This document shows, piece by piece, positions 32,261-45,150 of a stretch of DNA of 54,187 bases. Position 1 is the first letter of the stretch. Every line of letters starts with the position of its first letter. Source of the DNA: Halorussus litoreus (GTDB lineage: Archaea > Halobacteriota > Halobacteria > Halobacteriales > Haladaptataceae); the NCBI RefSeq assembly GCF_003382685.1, contig NZ_QLVG01000049.1, positions 1 through 54,187 on the forward strand, given 5' to 3'. The position numbers and the translations under genes were made by a program. The notes beneath the pieces are model-generated. The model had not been told where the DNA came from and ran no database searches. It worked only from the letters and a program-made list of their open reading frames with translations.

Positions 32261-32322
32261 GGCGGCCCTACCCGGCCTACTCCGGCGACGCGCGTCGCCG
32301 GAGTAGGCCGGGCAGGGCCGCC
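32261..32322. repeat. 62-bp near-perfect palindrome over the HAD stop codon
   Basis: The left arm begins GGCGGCCCTACCCGGCCTAC at 32261 and the right arm ends GGCAGGGCCGCC at 32322. The arms are 31 bp each, with only one mismatched pair and almost no spacer. The right arm and part of the left encode the last 15 residues of the HAD protein (ALPGLLRRRASPE), so the stop codon is inside the structure. Confidence 0.8.
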
Positions 32323-32939
32323 AGACTGTCTATCGTCGCGTCAGGCTCCTCGGGGTCGGACTCCGGAGCCACGTCCGCGTACTGGCCCTTCATCACTCGG
32401 ACCGTGTACATACCGAGGTCGTTCGGGCGCGCGAAGTCCAACTCCGGTCTGTCGCCGACGTACGCCATCTCCGACGGCTCCACGTCGAGCGCGTCGCAGA
32501 GCTCCCGGAACGGCTCGGGATCGCGCTTGGTCGCGTCCCCGTCGGCCGTGACGACCACCGCGTCGAAGTACGAGGCGATGGCGAGCCGCTCCAGTTTCTC
32601 GCCGCCGTTCGTCCCGCCGGTGAGGAGTCCGAGCCGGTAGTCGTCGAGGCTCTCCAGCACGGGCACCGTCTCCGGGTACGCGACGAGGTCGTCGTCGTGG
32701 TCGTGGTACGCGGCGACGAGTTCGGGAACGAGGTCCGGGGAGAGGTCGCGAGCGTCGAGGACGTGATCGAACGTCCCCTCCCGGATGTCGCGCCGGAAGT
32801 ACGCCTTTAGAAGGTCTTCCCGAGCGTCCACGCCCGTTCTGGATTCGAGGGCGCGGGCCGCCGCCTTGAGCCCGGCCCGCACGTACTGGCGGTCGTCGAA
32901 CAGCGTCCCGTCGAGGTCGAACCCCACCGCCGTGACCAT
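32277..32939 (-). CDS. HAD-superfamily hydrolase
   Basis: A 220-residue phosphatase-like protein. Motif I is FDLDGTLFDD (nucleophile and acid Asp), motif II LLTGGTNG, motif III the Lys in TKRDPEPF, and motif IV YVGDRPELDFARPNDLGM with the metal Asp. A cap of about 100 residues lies between I and II. It would hydrolyse a small phosphorylated metabolite, perhaps a sugar phosphate of the locus. The upstream frame to 33128 is Arg-rich and unlike the family; ATG 32939 is the chosen start (ATG 32963 is an alternative). Its 3' end sits inside a 62-bp palindrome. Confidence 0.87.
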   Translation of the reverse strand: MVTAVGFDLDGTLFDDRQYVRAGLKAAARALESRTGVDAREDLLKAYFRRDIREGTFDHVLDARDLSPDLVPELVAAYHDHDDDLVAYPETVPVLESLDDYRLGLLTGGTNGGEKLERLAIASYFDAVVVTADGDATKRDPEPFRELCDALDVEPSEMAYVGDRPELDFARPNDLGMYTVRVMKGQYADVAPESDPEEPDATIDSLAALPGLLRRRASPE

Positions 32940-34267: not shown

Positions 34268-35374
34268 ATGACGAGTACACCATCTATCGCAGTCGTACTT
34301 GGGACGCGCCCGGAGATAATCAAGTGCGCCCCCATCGTCCACGAGTGCGAGCGACGGGACTACCCCTACGCGGTCGTCCACACCGGCCAGCACTACTCGG
34401 ACGAACTGGACTCGGTGTTCTTCGAGGAACTCGACCTCCCCGAGCCCGACTACGACCTCGGCGTCGGCTCGCGCCCGCACGGCCGACAGACCGGCACGCT
34501 CATCGCCCAGATCGAGCCGATTCTGGAGGACGAGCGGCCCGACGCGGTGCTGGTGCAGGGCGACACCAACTCCGCGCTCGCCGGCAGCATCGCGGCCTGC
34601 AAACTCGACACGCAGCTCGGCCACGTCGAGGCGGGCCTGCGGAGCTTCGACAGGGACATGCCAGAGGAGCTCAACCGGATTCTGGCCGACCACGCCTCGG
34701 ACTACCTGTTCGCTCCGACGACCGAGTCCGAGCGACTGCTCCAAAACGAGGGCATCCCGGACGAGCGCATCCACGTGACCGGCAACACCGTCGTCGACGC
34801 GGTCCAGCGCCACGCCGACATCGCGGCCGAGGAGAGCGACGTGCTCGACGAGTTGGGTATCTCGGGCTTTCGATACGCCGTCCTGACCGCCCATCGCGCC
34901 GAGAACGTCGACGATCCGGACCGCTTTCAGTCGATCCTCGACGGCGTGGGCCGGTTCGCCGCCGACCGGGGCGTCCGCTGCATCTACCCCGTCCACCCGC
35001 GGGCCGAGAAGCGCATCGCGGAGTTCGACCTCTCGGTCCCCGAGGGAATCGAACTCGTCGACGCGCTGTCGTACCTCGACTTCCTCCGTCTCGAAGACGA
35101 GGCGCTCGTCGTCTTCACCGACTCCGGCGGGGTCCAGGAGGAGACCTGCATCCTCGGCACGCGCTGCGTGACGGTCCGGGACAGCACCGAGCGCCCGGAG
35201 ACGCTCTCTGTCGGTGCGAACATCCTCGTCGGAACGGACGCCGAGGACATCGCATCTGGAGCCGCCGAGATGCTCGACCGCCCGGTCGACTGGGCGTGTC
35301 CGTTCGGCAACGGGACGGCCGCGGCCAACATTCTCGACGCCGTCTCGGCGGACGTGCTGGCGGAGGTAGCATGA
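34268..35374 (+). CDS. wecB: UDP-N-acetylglucosamine 2-epimerase (non-hydrolysing)
   Basis: A 368-residue enzyme that interconverts UDP-GlcNAc and UDP-ManNAc in the cytoplasm. Family blocks are AVVLGTRPEIIKCAPIVHEC, VQGDTNSALAGSIAACK, HVEAGLRSFDRDMPEELNR (catalytic Asp/Glu region), YPVHPRAE and FTDSGGVQEETCILG. It overlaps the next gene by 4 nt (ATGA), so both are made together. The frame extends to 34220 upstream, but ATG 34268 is the natural start. The pair supplies UDP-ManNAcA for the glycan. Confidence 0.93.
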   Translation: MTSTPSIAVVLGTRPEIIKCAPIVHECERRDYPYAVVHTGQHYSDELDSVFFEELDLPEPDYDLGVGSRPHGRQTGTLIAQIEPILEDERPDAVLVQGDTNSALAGSIAACKLDTQLGHVEAGLRSFDRDMPEELNRILADHASDYLFAPTTESERLLQNEGIPDERIHVTGNTVVDAVQRHADIAAEESDVLDELGISGFRYAVLTAHRAENVDDPDRFQSILDGVGRFAADRGVRCIYPVHPRAEKRIAEFDLSVPEGIELVDALSYLDFLRLEDEALVVFTDSGGVQEETCILGTRCVTVRDSTERPETLSVGANILVGTDAEDIASGAAEMLDRPVDWACPFGNGTAAANILDAVSADVLAEVA

Positions 35375-36669
35375 GCAGAGTCTGCGTCCACGGACTGGGG
35401 TACATCGGCCTGCCGACCGCGGCGATGCTGACCAGCAACGGCCACGAGGTCGTCGGGTTCGACACCTCCGAGCGCGTCCTGGACCGCATCGAGCGGCTGG
35501 ACCTCCAGTTCGACGAACCGGAGCTCCGCTCGCTGGTGTCCGACGCGCTGGATTCGGGCGACCTCGTCCTCGCGACCGAGCCCGAGACGGCCGACTACCA
35601 CCTCGTCTGCGTGCCGACGCCGCTCGACGCGAGCGGCGTCGGCACGCAGACGGACAATCGAACCGAACTACGAAAGCGGGCCGACCTCTCGGCCGTCGAG
35701 GCCGCCTCGGACACCATCGCCGACGAGTTGCGGCCCGGCGACACCGTGATCGTCGAGTCGACCGTTCCGCCGGGCACCACCGCCGAGACGGTTCGGCCCA
35801 TCCTCGAAGCGAGCGGACTCACCGCGGGCGAGGACTTCAGACTCGCGTACTCGCCCGAGACGGTGCTACCTGGGGACGTGGCCCGCGAGCTCCGCGAGAA
35901 CGACCGCATCGTCGGCGGCGTCGACGACGGGTCGACGCGCTCGGCGGTCGAGTTGTACGACTCGTTCGTCGACGCGACCGTCTACACCACTACCGCGACG
36001 ACCGCCGAGTTCGCCAAGCTCGCCCAGAACACGTTCCGGGACGTGAACATCGCGCTCGCCAACGAGTTCGCCAAGCTCGCCCGGGACTACGGCATCGAGT
36101 CGCGGGAGGCTATCCGACTCGGGAACACTCATCCACGGGTCGACATCCACCGGCCCGGCCCCGGCGTCGGCGGTCACTGCGTGCCCGTCGACCCGTGGTT
36201 CCTCGCCGAGCACTCGGACCGGACCGAACTCCTCGAGTGCGCGCGGCGGGTCAACGACGGGATGGTCGGCTACGTCGTCGAACTCGTCCGGTCGCACCTC
36301 GGCGACCTCGACGGCCGCCGGATCGCCGTCCTCGGCGTCGCGTACAAGGGTAACGTCGCCGACGTGCGCCAGAGCCCGACGCTCCGGCTCGCCCACGAAC
36401 TGGTCGAGACGGGCGCGGACGCCAGTTTTCACGACCCGCACGTCGAGGCCGATTCAGTCGCACAGTCCGAGCGCGTGGCACTGTCGTCGCTGTCGGAGGC
36501 GACCGCGAACGCCGACGCGGTCGTGATCATGACCGACCACGACGAGTACCGAAACCTCGACCCCCAGCGGATGGCCGAGCGAATGCGGACGCCCGTGATG
36601 GTCGACACCAAGGCGATGATCGACCGCGACGCGTGGACCGACAGCGGGTTCGACGTTTCGCAGGTGTAG
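35371..36669 (+). CDS. wecC: UDP-N-acetyl-D-mannosaminuronate dehydrogenase
   Basis: A 432-residue NAD-dependent UDP-sugar 6-dehydrogenase. The N-terminal site is VCVHGLGYIGLPTAAML. The central part has VESTVPPGTTAETVRPILE. The catalytic Cys is in GPGVGGHCVPVDPW (about residue 268), and the C-terminal domain has VAYKGNVADVRQSPTLRL. With WecB next to it the product should be UDP-ManNAcA, though a dehydrogenase of this family can also act on other N-acetylated hexoses. It is cytoplasmic. Its ATG overlaps the WecB stop. Confidence 0.92.
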   Translation: MSRVCVHGLGYIGLPTAAMLTSNGHEVVGFDTSERVLDRIERLDLQFDEPELRSLVSDALDSGDLVLATEPETADYHLVCVPTPLDASGVGTQTDNRTELRKRADLSAVEAASDTIADELRPGDTVIVESTVPPGTTAETVRPILEASGLTAGEDFRLAYSPETVLPGDVARELRENDRIVGGVDDGSTRSAVELYDSFVDATVYTTTATTAEFAKLAQNTFRDVNIALANEFAKLARDYGIESREAIRLGNTHPRVDIHRPGPGVGGHCVPVDPWFLAEHSDRTELLECARRVNDGMVGYVVELVRSHLGDLDGRRIAVLGVAYKGNVADVRQSPTLRLAHELVETGADASFHDPHVEADSVAQSERVALSSLSEATANADAVVIMTDHDEYRNLDPQRMAERMRTPVMVDTKAMIDRDAWTDSGFDVSQV

Positions 36670-41303: not shown

Positions 41304-43310
41304 CTATGCGGCCGTGCCGTTCTGCGCGGCCGGAGTAGCGTTCCCCGACGCGGTCTCGCTGCGACCGAACACGCCGACGAACTCGCTGTCCGACCAGAAC
41401 AGCGACGTGCCGCCGCTCTCGTACACCTTGTTCCGTCGGGCTTCGGCGACGGCGAATCTGTCGTCGGAGATCGTAACCTGACTGCCGTCGACCAGCAGCA
41501 GTTTGTGGTCGGTCCACTCCTCGCGGACGATCATCAGCCCGGCGGCTGCCGACATGCCGTCCTCCTCGGGCGACAGCCCGATGCTGCTCCCGCGATAGCC
41601 CTCGCTGAGGAACGTGTTCCGGATCAGCTGCGTGCCCGTGTTCGTCGTTGCCGCGTGGTCGTCGAGGAACGACGAGAGCGACTGAACGGTCCGGTACTCG
41701 CGCTCGCCGTACTCGATCTGGACGCGCTGCTTGTCCGTGTGTAGCGAGTCGAGGTCGCGAGCGACCGGCGCGGCGAACGACGCGCTCGCTCCCGCAGCGA
41801 TCAGTACGAGCGCGCCGACCGCGTAGCGCGGATATCGCGGGTTCGTCCGGGCGAGTCGCGACAGCGCCACGCCGAGCGGAAACACTGCGACGATGGCGAC
41901 GAGCAGCCGGATGCGGTCCAGCCACGGAACCGGCAGCGGGAGCGGCAACAGCAGCCCGCTCAGGATGAGCCCCGTCGCGAGGAGCGGCATCCGATCCAGA
42001 TGGCGTCGCCAGTGCTGGACTGTCTCGTAGAACGCGACCAGAAGGAGCCCGCTCAAGAGCGCATAGTAGATCCCGTCCGGCGAGTAGAGCCACCGGATCG
42101 CGGTTCGAACGTCGTCGGTGACGAGCCCGACGCCGTACAGGAAGATCCCACCTCCCTCTCCGCCGCCGGTCGTCAGCACGAAGAACGTGACGAGGCCGCC
42201 GACCATACGGGTCAGGAAGATGCTCGGCGTGTACAGCCAGTAGGCGAACAGCACGACCGCCGCGATGAGCAGCGGGAACGCGTACACCACCTGGACGTTC
42301 GACGCTCTCGACAGGGCGCTCCGGAAGTCGCTCGCCGCGACGCCCCGCTGGACGACAAGCAGCCCGAGCAGCAGACCGAGCGGGACCAGCGCGATGACGA
42401 ACGTCAGGTGGTGGGTCGTCGCCATAGCGACCGCGAGCAGCGGAACGACCGCGGCGTACCGACGAGCCGCCCTCGCTGTCTCCGCGGTGAATAGGCTCGC
42501 GTTGAGGTAGACGCCGACGAACAGCATCGCGACGGCCAGCGCCTGCGGGTAGAACGCCAGCACGTACGGTTTCAGAACTAGCAGTAGCGTAAAGGCGATC
42601 ACCGTCCCGAACGCGACAGCCTCGTCGCCCCAGAGCGCTCGCACGGTCAGGTAGACCAGCGGGACGAGCGCCGAGTAGGCCACCAGCCCCGTCAGGACCA
42701 TCGCGTCGTACGTCGTCAGCCCCAGCAGCTCCGCGAACGAGCCGACGAGCAGGTGGAACCCCGGGTACATCCAGTAGGCCGACGGTTGAATCGCGAGGAC
42801 GCTTCCGGCGTCGAGCATTCGATTGACGAACGTGACGTGCCGGAGGACGTCCCCGCCGCCGAAGTACAGCCCGGTCGTGAGGAACTTCGCGAACAGTGGC
42901 ACCGCGAACAGGAGTACGAGTTCGTACAGTAGAGCGGTCGGCGCGGCGTCTCGGCGAAGCTGGTACGCGACGGCAAGGTAGCCGAGCCCGAGGAACGCGG
43001 CCACCCACGGCGCTCGCGAGCCGAGCCAGACGGTAGCACAGATCGCGAGGCCAGCCGCGATGGTGAGTATTTTGGCGTAGGTCCAGTCCGAGCCGCGGAT
43101 CTCTCGTTCTGGCGCGTCTGTCCCGTCACCCCCGTCCGCACGATTAGTGGCGTAGAACACCGCCACGCTCGTCAGGAACGCGACGACGAGGAACACGGCC
43201 CGAATGGCCGTCGACAGCGGAAGGTAGCGCCACGCGGCCGCGATGACGGGCGCGAGGACGACGAGGACGAGCACCGCGGGATGCCGACGGAGGAACTCGA
43301 CGGGGTTCAT
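41304..43310 (-). CDS. Large polytopic membrane protein, putative GT-C-like glycosyltransferase
   Basis: A 668-residue membrane protein with about 12-14 helices in the first 500 residues and a C-terminal soluble part (about 515-668). An early loop has GGGDVLRHVTFVNRML, the kind of Asp-x3-His loop seen in GT-C and DUF2206-like proteins; the next is SAYWMYPGFHLLVGSFAEL. I cannot name the family with certainty. It would transfer sugars from lipid-linked donors outside the membrane if the GT-C idea holds. Its ATG 43310 overlaps the DUF1616 stop by 4 nt (an alternative ATG is 43328), so the two are coupled. Confidence 0.72.
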   Translation of the reverse strand: MNPVEFLRRHPAVLVLVVLAPVIAAAWRYLPLSTAIRAVFLVVAFLTSVAVFYATNRADGGDGTDAPEREIRGSDWTYAKILTIAAGLAICATVWLGSRAPWVAAFLGLGYLAVAYQLRRDAAPTALLYELVLLFAVPLFAKFLTTGLYFGGGDVLRHVTFVNRMLDAGSVLAIQPSAYWMYPGFHLLVGSFAELLGLTTYDAMVLTGLVAYSALVPLVYLTVRALWGDEAVAFGTVIAFTLLLVLKPYVLAFYPQALAVAMLFVGVYLNASLFTAETARAARRYAAVVPLLAVAMATTHHLTFVIALVPLGLLLGLLVVQRGVAASDFRSALSRASNVQVVYAFPLLIAAVVLFAYWLYTPSIFLTRMVGGLVTFFVLTTGGGEGGGIFLYGVGLVTDDVRTAIRWLYSPDGIYYALLSGLLLVAFYETVQHWRRHLDRMPLLATGLILSGLLLPLPLPVPWLDRIRLLVAIVAVFPLGVALSRLARTNPRYPRYAVGALVLIAAGASASFAAPVARDLDSLHTDKQRVQIEYGEREYRTVQSLSSFLDDHAATTNTGTQLIRNTFLSEGYRGSSIGLSPEEDGMSAAAGLMIVREEWTDHKLLLVDGSQVTISDDRFAVAEARRNKVYESGGTSLFWSDSEFVGVFGRSETASGNATPAAQNGTAA

Positions 43311-44557
43311 GAACACACCATCTGGCACGCCCGCGAACTCGGTCCGGACAGCTGACTTGCCTGGGACAGCGTATTCGTTCCGGACAGTCGACTCGCACCA
43401 ATCAACTGGCTCGCTCCGGATTCGTTCCCACTGACGCCGACCCAGAGGTGAACCTCGCTGTCGGCGTTCGCCGCCGACGGCTCGGCTGGCGGTTCCCCCC
43501 GGTAGACGAGGTAAGTCAGTCTGAGCCGGTCGCCGGTCAGCTCCGGCGTGACGGCGTGGTCGACGAGCGCGCGCTCGCCGGGAGCGAGCCTGCGGTCGAA
43601 CTCCCCGACGGACTGGGTCTCGACCACCTCGGTCGCGTTCTCGGACGCCCTGGTCGCGTTACTGGACGCTCCGGTCGCGTTCCCGGACGACTCCACGCGC
43701 TGGAGTTGGGCGACTATCGTGTACTCGCTGGCTCGTGAGTGGTGGTTCTGTACGCCGACGATCAACGGCGTCGACTCCCCCGCGGTCAGGTTCGTGGGGT
43801 AGCCCGCCGCGACGAGCCCTTCCGACTCGTTCTCGGTCAGCAGGTACGTCTCGGTGTAGCCCGGCCCGTTGTCGAGCACGACGGCCTGCGCGACGCTCCC
43901 GACGGCCGCCACGACGACCACGACGAGGACGACGTTCAGGGCCGTCGCGGCCGTCGATTCGCCGGCCATTGCACGCGAAATCGTCCCGACCGGATTCCGT
44001 CCACTCCGTCCGGCAGCCTCCAGATCGTCGACCGCCCAGCCGAACTGCCGGTCCGGCGGGACGCCGAACCGTCGGACGGTCGCGCCAGCAGTCCCGACGA
44101 GGGTCACGAGGCTCACGGCGAACAGTATCGTCGCCGGGCCGATCCCCCACGGGGTGAAGTTGGTCGCGAGCGCCGCGAGGGGAACGACCAGCAGCGACGT
44201 GAACACCGACAGGACCGCGCGTTCGAGCGGGGAGATGCCCGGCGAACTGCCGGCAGTTCGCCGGGCATCTCCCCGCGAACCGTCGCTGGCAGGGTCGGAG
44301 GACTCGGGAAAGAGGGCCGCGACGGCGACGTAGCCCGGAAAGACGAGCAGGATCGGAAGCGCGAGAACGGCGGTCACGAGCTGAATCGCGTTCCCGACAG
44401 TAACGGCCCACGCGGCGCTCAGCACGGTCCACGCCGCGATGACGCCGAGATCGACGGGCGTCCGCTCGCCCACCATCCCCACGGCCGTCCGCGTCCACGA
44501 CATCACACCGACCAATGCCGCCAACGGATAAAAACCACGTGGTAATTTGAAGCTCAT
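43307..44557 (-). CDS. DUF1616 membrane protein
   Basis: A 416-residue membrane protein of the DUF1616 type. There are about four N-terminal helices (LPILLVFPGYVAVAALFPES), a core with ISPLERAVLSVFTSLLVVPL, and a long extracellular part (about 205-390) with TNLTAGESTPLIVGVQNHHS and LAPGERALVDHAV. Family members are common next to glycan and surface loci in haloarchaea, but their function is unknown. A 50-bp perfect palindrome lies inside its coding sequence in a loop (GDARRTAGSSPGISP, about 96-110). It overlaps the large membrane protein gene. Confidence 0.82.
   Translation of the reverse strand: MSFKLPRGFYPLAALVGVMSWTRTAVGMVGERTPVDLGVIAAWTVLSAAWAVTVGNAIQLVTAVLALPILLVFPGYVAVAALFPESSDPASDGSRGDARRTAGSSPGISPLERAVLSVFTSLLVVPLAALATNFTPWGIGPATILFAVSLVTLVGTAGATVRRFGVPPDRQFGWAVDDLEAAGRSGRNPVGTISRAMAGESTAATALNVVLVVVVVAAVGSVAQAVVLDNGPGYTETYLLTENESEGLVAAGYPTNLTAGESTPLIVGVQNHHSRASEYTIVAQLQRVESSGNATGASSNATRASENATEVVETQSVGEFDRRLAPGERALVDHAVTPELTGDRLRLTYLVYRGEPPAEPSAANADSEVHLWVGVSGNESGASQLIGASRLSGTNTLSQASQLSGPSSRACQMVCS
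44227..44276. repeat. 50-bp perfect palindrome inside the DUF1616 gene
   Basis: The left arm begins GCGGGGAGATGCCCGGCGAA and continues CTGCC; the right arm is its exact complement with no spacer. Both strands encode the same peptide, GDARRTAGSSPGISP, which confirms the symmetry. It lies in the loop between LFPE and ISPLERAV. Confidence 0.85.
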
Positions 44558-45097: not shown

Positions 45098-45150
45098 GGC
45101 GGGCTGGCCAGCGGCGGTCCGGTTTCCGGACCGCCGCGGGCCAGCTCGCC
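45098..45150. repeat. 53-bp inverted repeat upstream of the DUF4350 gene
   Basis: The left arm GGCGGGCTGGCCAGCGGCGG..., 25 bp, pairs with the right arm at 45126-45150 around a TTT loop, with 2 mismatches in 25. It lies 26-78 bp before the likely GTG start. Both strands encode related WPAAVR-x-PDRR-x-PAR peptides, which supports the symmetry. Confidence 0.75.

Follow-up and report, generated by a model that had tools for sequence, protein, structure and literature searches.

A 50-bp perfect palindrome, here called site A, lies within the DUF1616 gene of Halorussus litoreus. We regard it as probably the product of a replication error, by strand switching or fold-back copying, and not as an inserted element or a binding site. 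The window in which it lies (the whole stretch of 54,187 nucleotides that was analysed) contains four palindromes, designated sites A to D, and similar palindromes of unrelated sequence occur throughout this genome and in some other Halorussus genomes. At several of these other sites, comparison with orthologues distinguishes a native arm from a new one.

The palindrome in the DUF1616 gene

Site A consists of two arms of 25 bp each, which are 100% complementary and have 0 nt between them (Table 1). The earlier note had described a spacer-free exact 50-bp palindrome in the DUF1616 gene, and its coordinates, symmetry and host ORF all proved right; the palindrome is real. Its origin by chance is excluded: spacer-free palindromes with arms of at least 25 bp are expected 7e-10 times in the window and 5e-8 times in the genome, and the longest arm in 40 Markov (dinucleotide-frequency) shuffles of the window was 12. 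When folded as a DNA hairpin, site A reached z=-7.8. It was also correctly noted that one peptide, GDARRTAGSSPGISP, reads on each strand; since a perfect palindrome in such a register forces this, it does not constitute independent evidence. Beyond the 50 bp, GTTCG and CGAAC pair across a 2-nt bulge (p ~0.05), which is suggestive only of a weak extension of the palindrome.

Table 1 Features of the window (native and copied halves as suggested by homologue alignment and codon usage)
Feature	Position	Strand	Description
DUF1616 membrane protein gene	43307–44557	−	ORF of 416 aa holding site A; Pfam PF07760, E=3.8e-79
Site A	44227–44276		50-bp perfect spacer-free palindrome; codons GDARRTA/GSSPGISP
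Site A, apparently native half	44227–44251	−	coding-strand 3' half, GSSPGISP, running into LERAVLS; aligns with conserved GIDGIERVALS motif; GC3 8/9, normal codon usage
Site A, putative inverted copy	44252–44276	−	coding-strand 5' half, GDARRTA; without counterpart in homologues; GC3 4/8, codon usage in bottom 3.5% of windows
Site B	35604–35652	+	arms 23, spacer 3; in UDP-glucose/GDP-mannose dehydrogenase gene (35371–36669, +)
Site C	32261–32322		62-bp spacer-free palindrome, arms 31, one mismatch; over 3' end of HAD-hydrolase gene (32277–32939, −)
Site D	45098–45150		53-bp imperfect palindrome, arms 25, 2 mismatches, spacer 3; upstream of DUF4350 gene

The palindrome encodes residues 96-110 of the DUF1616 protein, between hydropathy peaks at residues 64-82 and 114-132. 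The loop in question, counted from LFP to the conserved ER..LS, is 36 aa long here and in the syntenic copy (L021) of another genome (G015), and varies from 28 to 72 aa across 58 homologues. A tolerant loop between membrane segments, as had been proposed, is borne out by these values. As the loop is hypervariable, no discrete insertion is definable in it, and the comparison suggested in the note, in which homologues would reveal an insertion of exactly the palindrome's length, gave no support.

Homologues of the DUF1616 protein were present in 42 of 59 related genomes, and in most of them a G-I-x-x-x-ER run matches the 3' half of site A. From the homologue alignment and codon usage (Table 1), the 3' half looks native, with the 5' half apparently copied from it in inverse, so the new part of site A is likely to be one half only. 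This evidence for a native and a new arm is indirect: because identity to the homologues is at most ~45%, site A is not polarisable at the DNA level. That template switching acted at this site, where the homologues are too distant for a DNA-level test, is our inference.

Similar palindromes in the window and in other Halorussus genomes

Site B is part of a clean 36-nt (12-codon) in-frame insertion placed right after the conserved VCVPTPLD. Read as its reverse complement, the new arm reproduces exactly the codons of the conserved VCVPTPLD region, so that one arm alone is conserved, and the insertion is missing from five orthologues, one of which is 79% identical over 2.3 kb. The insert also holds ~21 nt of filler (35653-35673), which is not an inverted copy; no exact source for it was found elsewhere in the genome, the best other match having 3 mismatches in 20. 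At site C, the called stop codon of the HAD-hydrolase gene falls inside the palindrome, and an inverted copy may have set the end of this gene.

In a scan that covered the window plus 400 kb of its genome, a second population of palindromes stood well apart from the tail expected by chance; their arms measured 13-28 bp and their spacers 0-4 nt, a spacer range that the design of the search had set. They are near-perfect, and nearly all have unrelated sequences. With arms of at least 14, 56 palindromes were collected in 701 kb of five genomes (two of the 56 being G/C-run cases), 13 of them spacer-free, whereas 2.17 Mb of shuffled sequence contained none; mirror-repeat controls gave near zero or few. 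The arms showed no relationship to each other, the exceptions being an orthologous pair, a 13-nt match within G012 and an artefactual pair of G/C runs. Palindromes of the class were depleted in genes, 31 of the 56 lying in or overlapping CDS versus 44.5 expected inside CDS (p=4e-5), where the CDS fractions are approximate because genes were called by a simple codon-model script and the two G/C-run cases are counted. Such depletion is expected for mutations under purifying selection.

The density of palindromes (score of at least 14) differed strongly between species. It was about 3-3.5 per 100 kb in the genome of the window, from which 489 kb were sampled, and per 100 kb reached 37 in G005, 18 in G012, 15 in G010 and 10 in G002, samples being 20-65 kb for every species other than that of the window. 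Other Halorussus species (40-65 kb each) showed zero or near zero, and samples of 20 kb from each of 19 genomes belonging to other families contained no palindromes of the class. In Haladaptatus-group genomes, from which small samples were taken, arms of 14-15 occurred occasionally. The high-density species do not group as one clade: a one-locus tree of weak resolution requires at least three changes, and on it a single origin of the trait was rejected.

Orthologues of sufficient similarity allowed the arms to be compared at several palindromes outside the window. In the genome of the window, a spacer-free palindrome with arms of 25+25 in an oligopeptide ABC transporter gene (L095:16205-16254) lies within a 96-nt in-frame insertion relative to the 85-88% identical copy of G001. 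The same 96-nt insertion (L095:16205-16300) combines the inverted duplication with 24-nt tandem repeats (EGREVA/EGREAA), which suggests one complex replication event. Another palindrome (L095:10775) lies in a loop or linker of variable length, as seen in ten relatives, and the sequence is palindromic only in the genome of the window. In G005, the right arm of L113:4136-4168 is conserved in 11 relatives, while its left arm is an inverted copy within a variable linker, common to G005 and G010 only. At L113:16974-17006 of the same genome, the native right side was overwritten to match the left arm with length unchanged, in one species only; partial pairing was already present there beforehand.

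A native arm accompanied by a new reverse-complement arm was found in this way at site B, L113:4136, L113:16974, L095:16205 and L095:10775. Judged from these alignments, local DNA is either duplicated in inverse or converted from one arm to the other in these events, a pattern characteristic of template switching during replication. An M20 peptidase gene (L209, G000:C41) carries a 51-nt in-frame insertion that is absent from relatives and contains two short hairpins, GTTGCGTC-GGA-GACGCAAC and GGCGG-TGAAG-CCGCC; this insertion possibly derives from a related process.

Origin of the palindromes

According to the proposed mechanism, a polymerase would switch strands or fold back during DNA synthesis and make an inverted copy of ~25 nt of the neighbouring coding sequence, leaving a spacer-free palindrome. 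Where this happened in a variable linker with a net change that stays in frame, the protein would tolerate the new palindrome. Throughout this genome, and in some others of the genus Halorussus, the same process would generate palindromes of this kind with many unrelated sequences, by either of two routes: addition of an inverted copy, or overwriting of an imperfect palindrome. As expected of template switching, the arms of the class are adjacent or nearly so, and their sequences are unrelated between events.

Rickettsia palindromic elements (also discussed in PMC6649704) are palindromic insertions kept in frame within genes, and a small mobile element of this kind, or one similar to PATEs or MITEs, would likewise account for a palindrome that sits in frame in a tolerant loop; site B and L095:16205 are indeed true insertions relative to orthologues. 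However, such elements are present in multiple homologous copies per genome, and the half-site of site A has only chance-level matches, at 3 mismatches, elsewhere in its genome. Its 28-nt core, with up to 3 mismatches allowed, is absent from 391 haloarchaeal genomes, the core has no match in viral contigs, and no copies of site A were found in 98 relatives. On these results, a mobile element was rejected as the source of site A. Moreover, palindromes of the class are unrelated to one another, and one arm corresponds to local native coding sequence. We therefore consider this explanation very unlikely and already largely refuted. Of the 'inserted palindromic element' of the earlier note, the insertion survives to the extent that one half looks added, while the mobile sense fails.

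The note had also raised a target for a DNA-binding protein, which is unsupported: an operator would show a recurrent motif or a conserved position in orthologues, but site A is single-copy, its loop is unconserved and site A is unrelated in sequence to the rest of its class. More broadly, a DNA or RNA structure might be kept for its function, be it a protein-binding palindrome, a translational hairpin or a recombination signal. The very stable hairpin (RNA -67 kcal/mol, z=-8.2) is in line with such selection, as is the persistence of dozens of similar palindromes in related genomes, one of them common to two species. The latter also weakens the concern that a palindrome this unstable could hardly be kept in a gene. 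Nevertheless, the sequences are unrelated and their positions unconserved between species, palindromes are depleted in genes, and samples of several sister species lack them, which makes a selected structure improbable.

Ordinary point mutations might instead have completed an imperfect palindrome left by drift or codon bias, given that GC-rich haloarchaeal codons yield some self-complementarity and that L113:16974 was partly paired beforehand. Yet no shuffle produced an arm longer than 12, none are seen in sister species and other families of equal GC richness, and site B and L095:16205 are insertions; this route is highly improbable. The least credible explanation is an assembly or library artefact in the form of a fold-back chimera, even though the window belongs to a draft assembly, as one of its 75 contigs. 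Against it, unique sequence runs on at both sides with the reading frame conserved, and site A is far from the contig ends. The class is also found in other, independent assemblies, some of only 4-5 contigs (G005, G012, G002), one palindrome is common to two independently assembled species, and the insertions are multiples of three (36, 96 and 15 nt).

Template switching itself leaves some observations unexplained. The arms are GC-rich (84% vs 68%), which bare template switching alone does not predict, and the mechanism gives no account of the more than 10-fold difference in rate between species. The additional nucleotides of the site B insert also count against it, as does codon usage over 27 coding palindromes, which did not generally separate native from copied arms (p=0.16). 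With this result, codon usage was rejected as a general test of arm origin.

Relation to known systems and differences in rate

Template-switch homogenisation in coding sequence is known from yeast (PMC8604942). The quasipalindrome or template-switch mutations of E. coli and yeast (Abraham and Hazkani-Covo 2021, PMC8604942) resemble the Halorussus events in that one inverted-repeat arm is copied from the other, coding sequence included. The yeast cases are homogenisations and spacer inversions that alter up to five neighbouring residues, whereas in Halorussus the change adds or overwrites an entire arm of 14-28 nt, spacers measure 0-4 nt, and one species carries as many as ~37 events per 100 kb.

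Nematomorph mitochondria (PMC6649704) contain long coding palindromes whose origin is unclear. There too, many perfect inverted repeats of unrelated sequence lie in functional genes and are gained or lost between species, and template switching has been suggested. However, the nematomorph repeats are up to 284 bp long, and conserved regions are encoded by both of their arms. Those of Halorussus measure 28-62 bp, occur in archaeal genomes and combine a conserved arm with one that lies in a variable linker; of the two arms at site A, and likewise at site B, only one encodes a conserved protein region. PATEs, MITEs and SMRs of Haloquadratum are likewise haloarchaeal and associated with palindromes, but are repeated mobile elements (PMC3119063), in contrast to the Halorussus palindromes, which lack repeated copies. 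Surveys have noted a weak excess of palindromes in archaea overall (PMC4060949; PMC13155455), and no paper on such palindromes in Halorussus was found in the open-access literature. Rickettsia palindromic elements form families of related copies, whereas the palindromes of Halorussus are each unique.

Mre11-Rad50, a hairpin nuclease, is the usual suspect for palindrome control. In the genome of the window, the Mre11 and Rad50 genes adjoin (L241 4161-8284), as judged from ORF length and a weak Rad50 match. In haloarchaea the Pfam zinc-hook model has low sensitivity, and a divergent Rad50 query mostly matched a variant, canonical matches being only weak. This variant, a second Rad50-like protein, occurs in some Halorussus genomes only (G009:C1:3122193-3124898; G013:C1:3051332-3054037, 57% identity; G005:C3:958-3705, 42%). 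The Mre11 encoded at L241 ends in a long Ala/Asp/Thr-rich repeat tail. Since the genome of the window has the two adjoining genes, loss of Rad50 or Mre11 was rejected as the cause, and something else therefore probably differs. We tentatively propose, as a possibility that we would not yet favour, that some Halorussus lineages repeatedly gained a hyperactive process that writes inverted copies of 14-28 nt beside their source DNA (extrapolated to ~130 per genome here and more than 1000 in G005). This process would continually create in-frame protein loops and would stem from an altered replication or repair factor, but not from the loss of canonical Mre11-Rad50.

Palindromes produced by template switching are known as rare mutations. 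As a mutation product, site A itself is ordinary and its kind already known; what is unusual is the density of such palindromes and the difference between species. Halorussus species with tens of palindromes per 100 kb, set beside sisters of similar GC content whose samples contain none, offer a natural comparison for finding what determines the rate. The class also provides clear examples of protein loops built by backward copying of a gene's own DNA.
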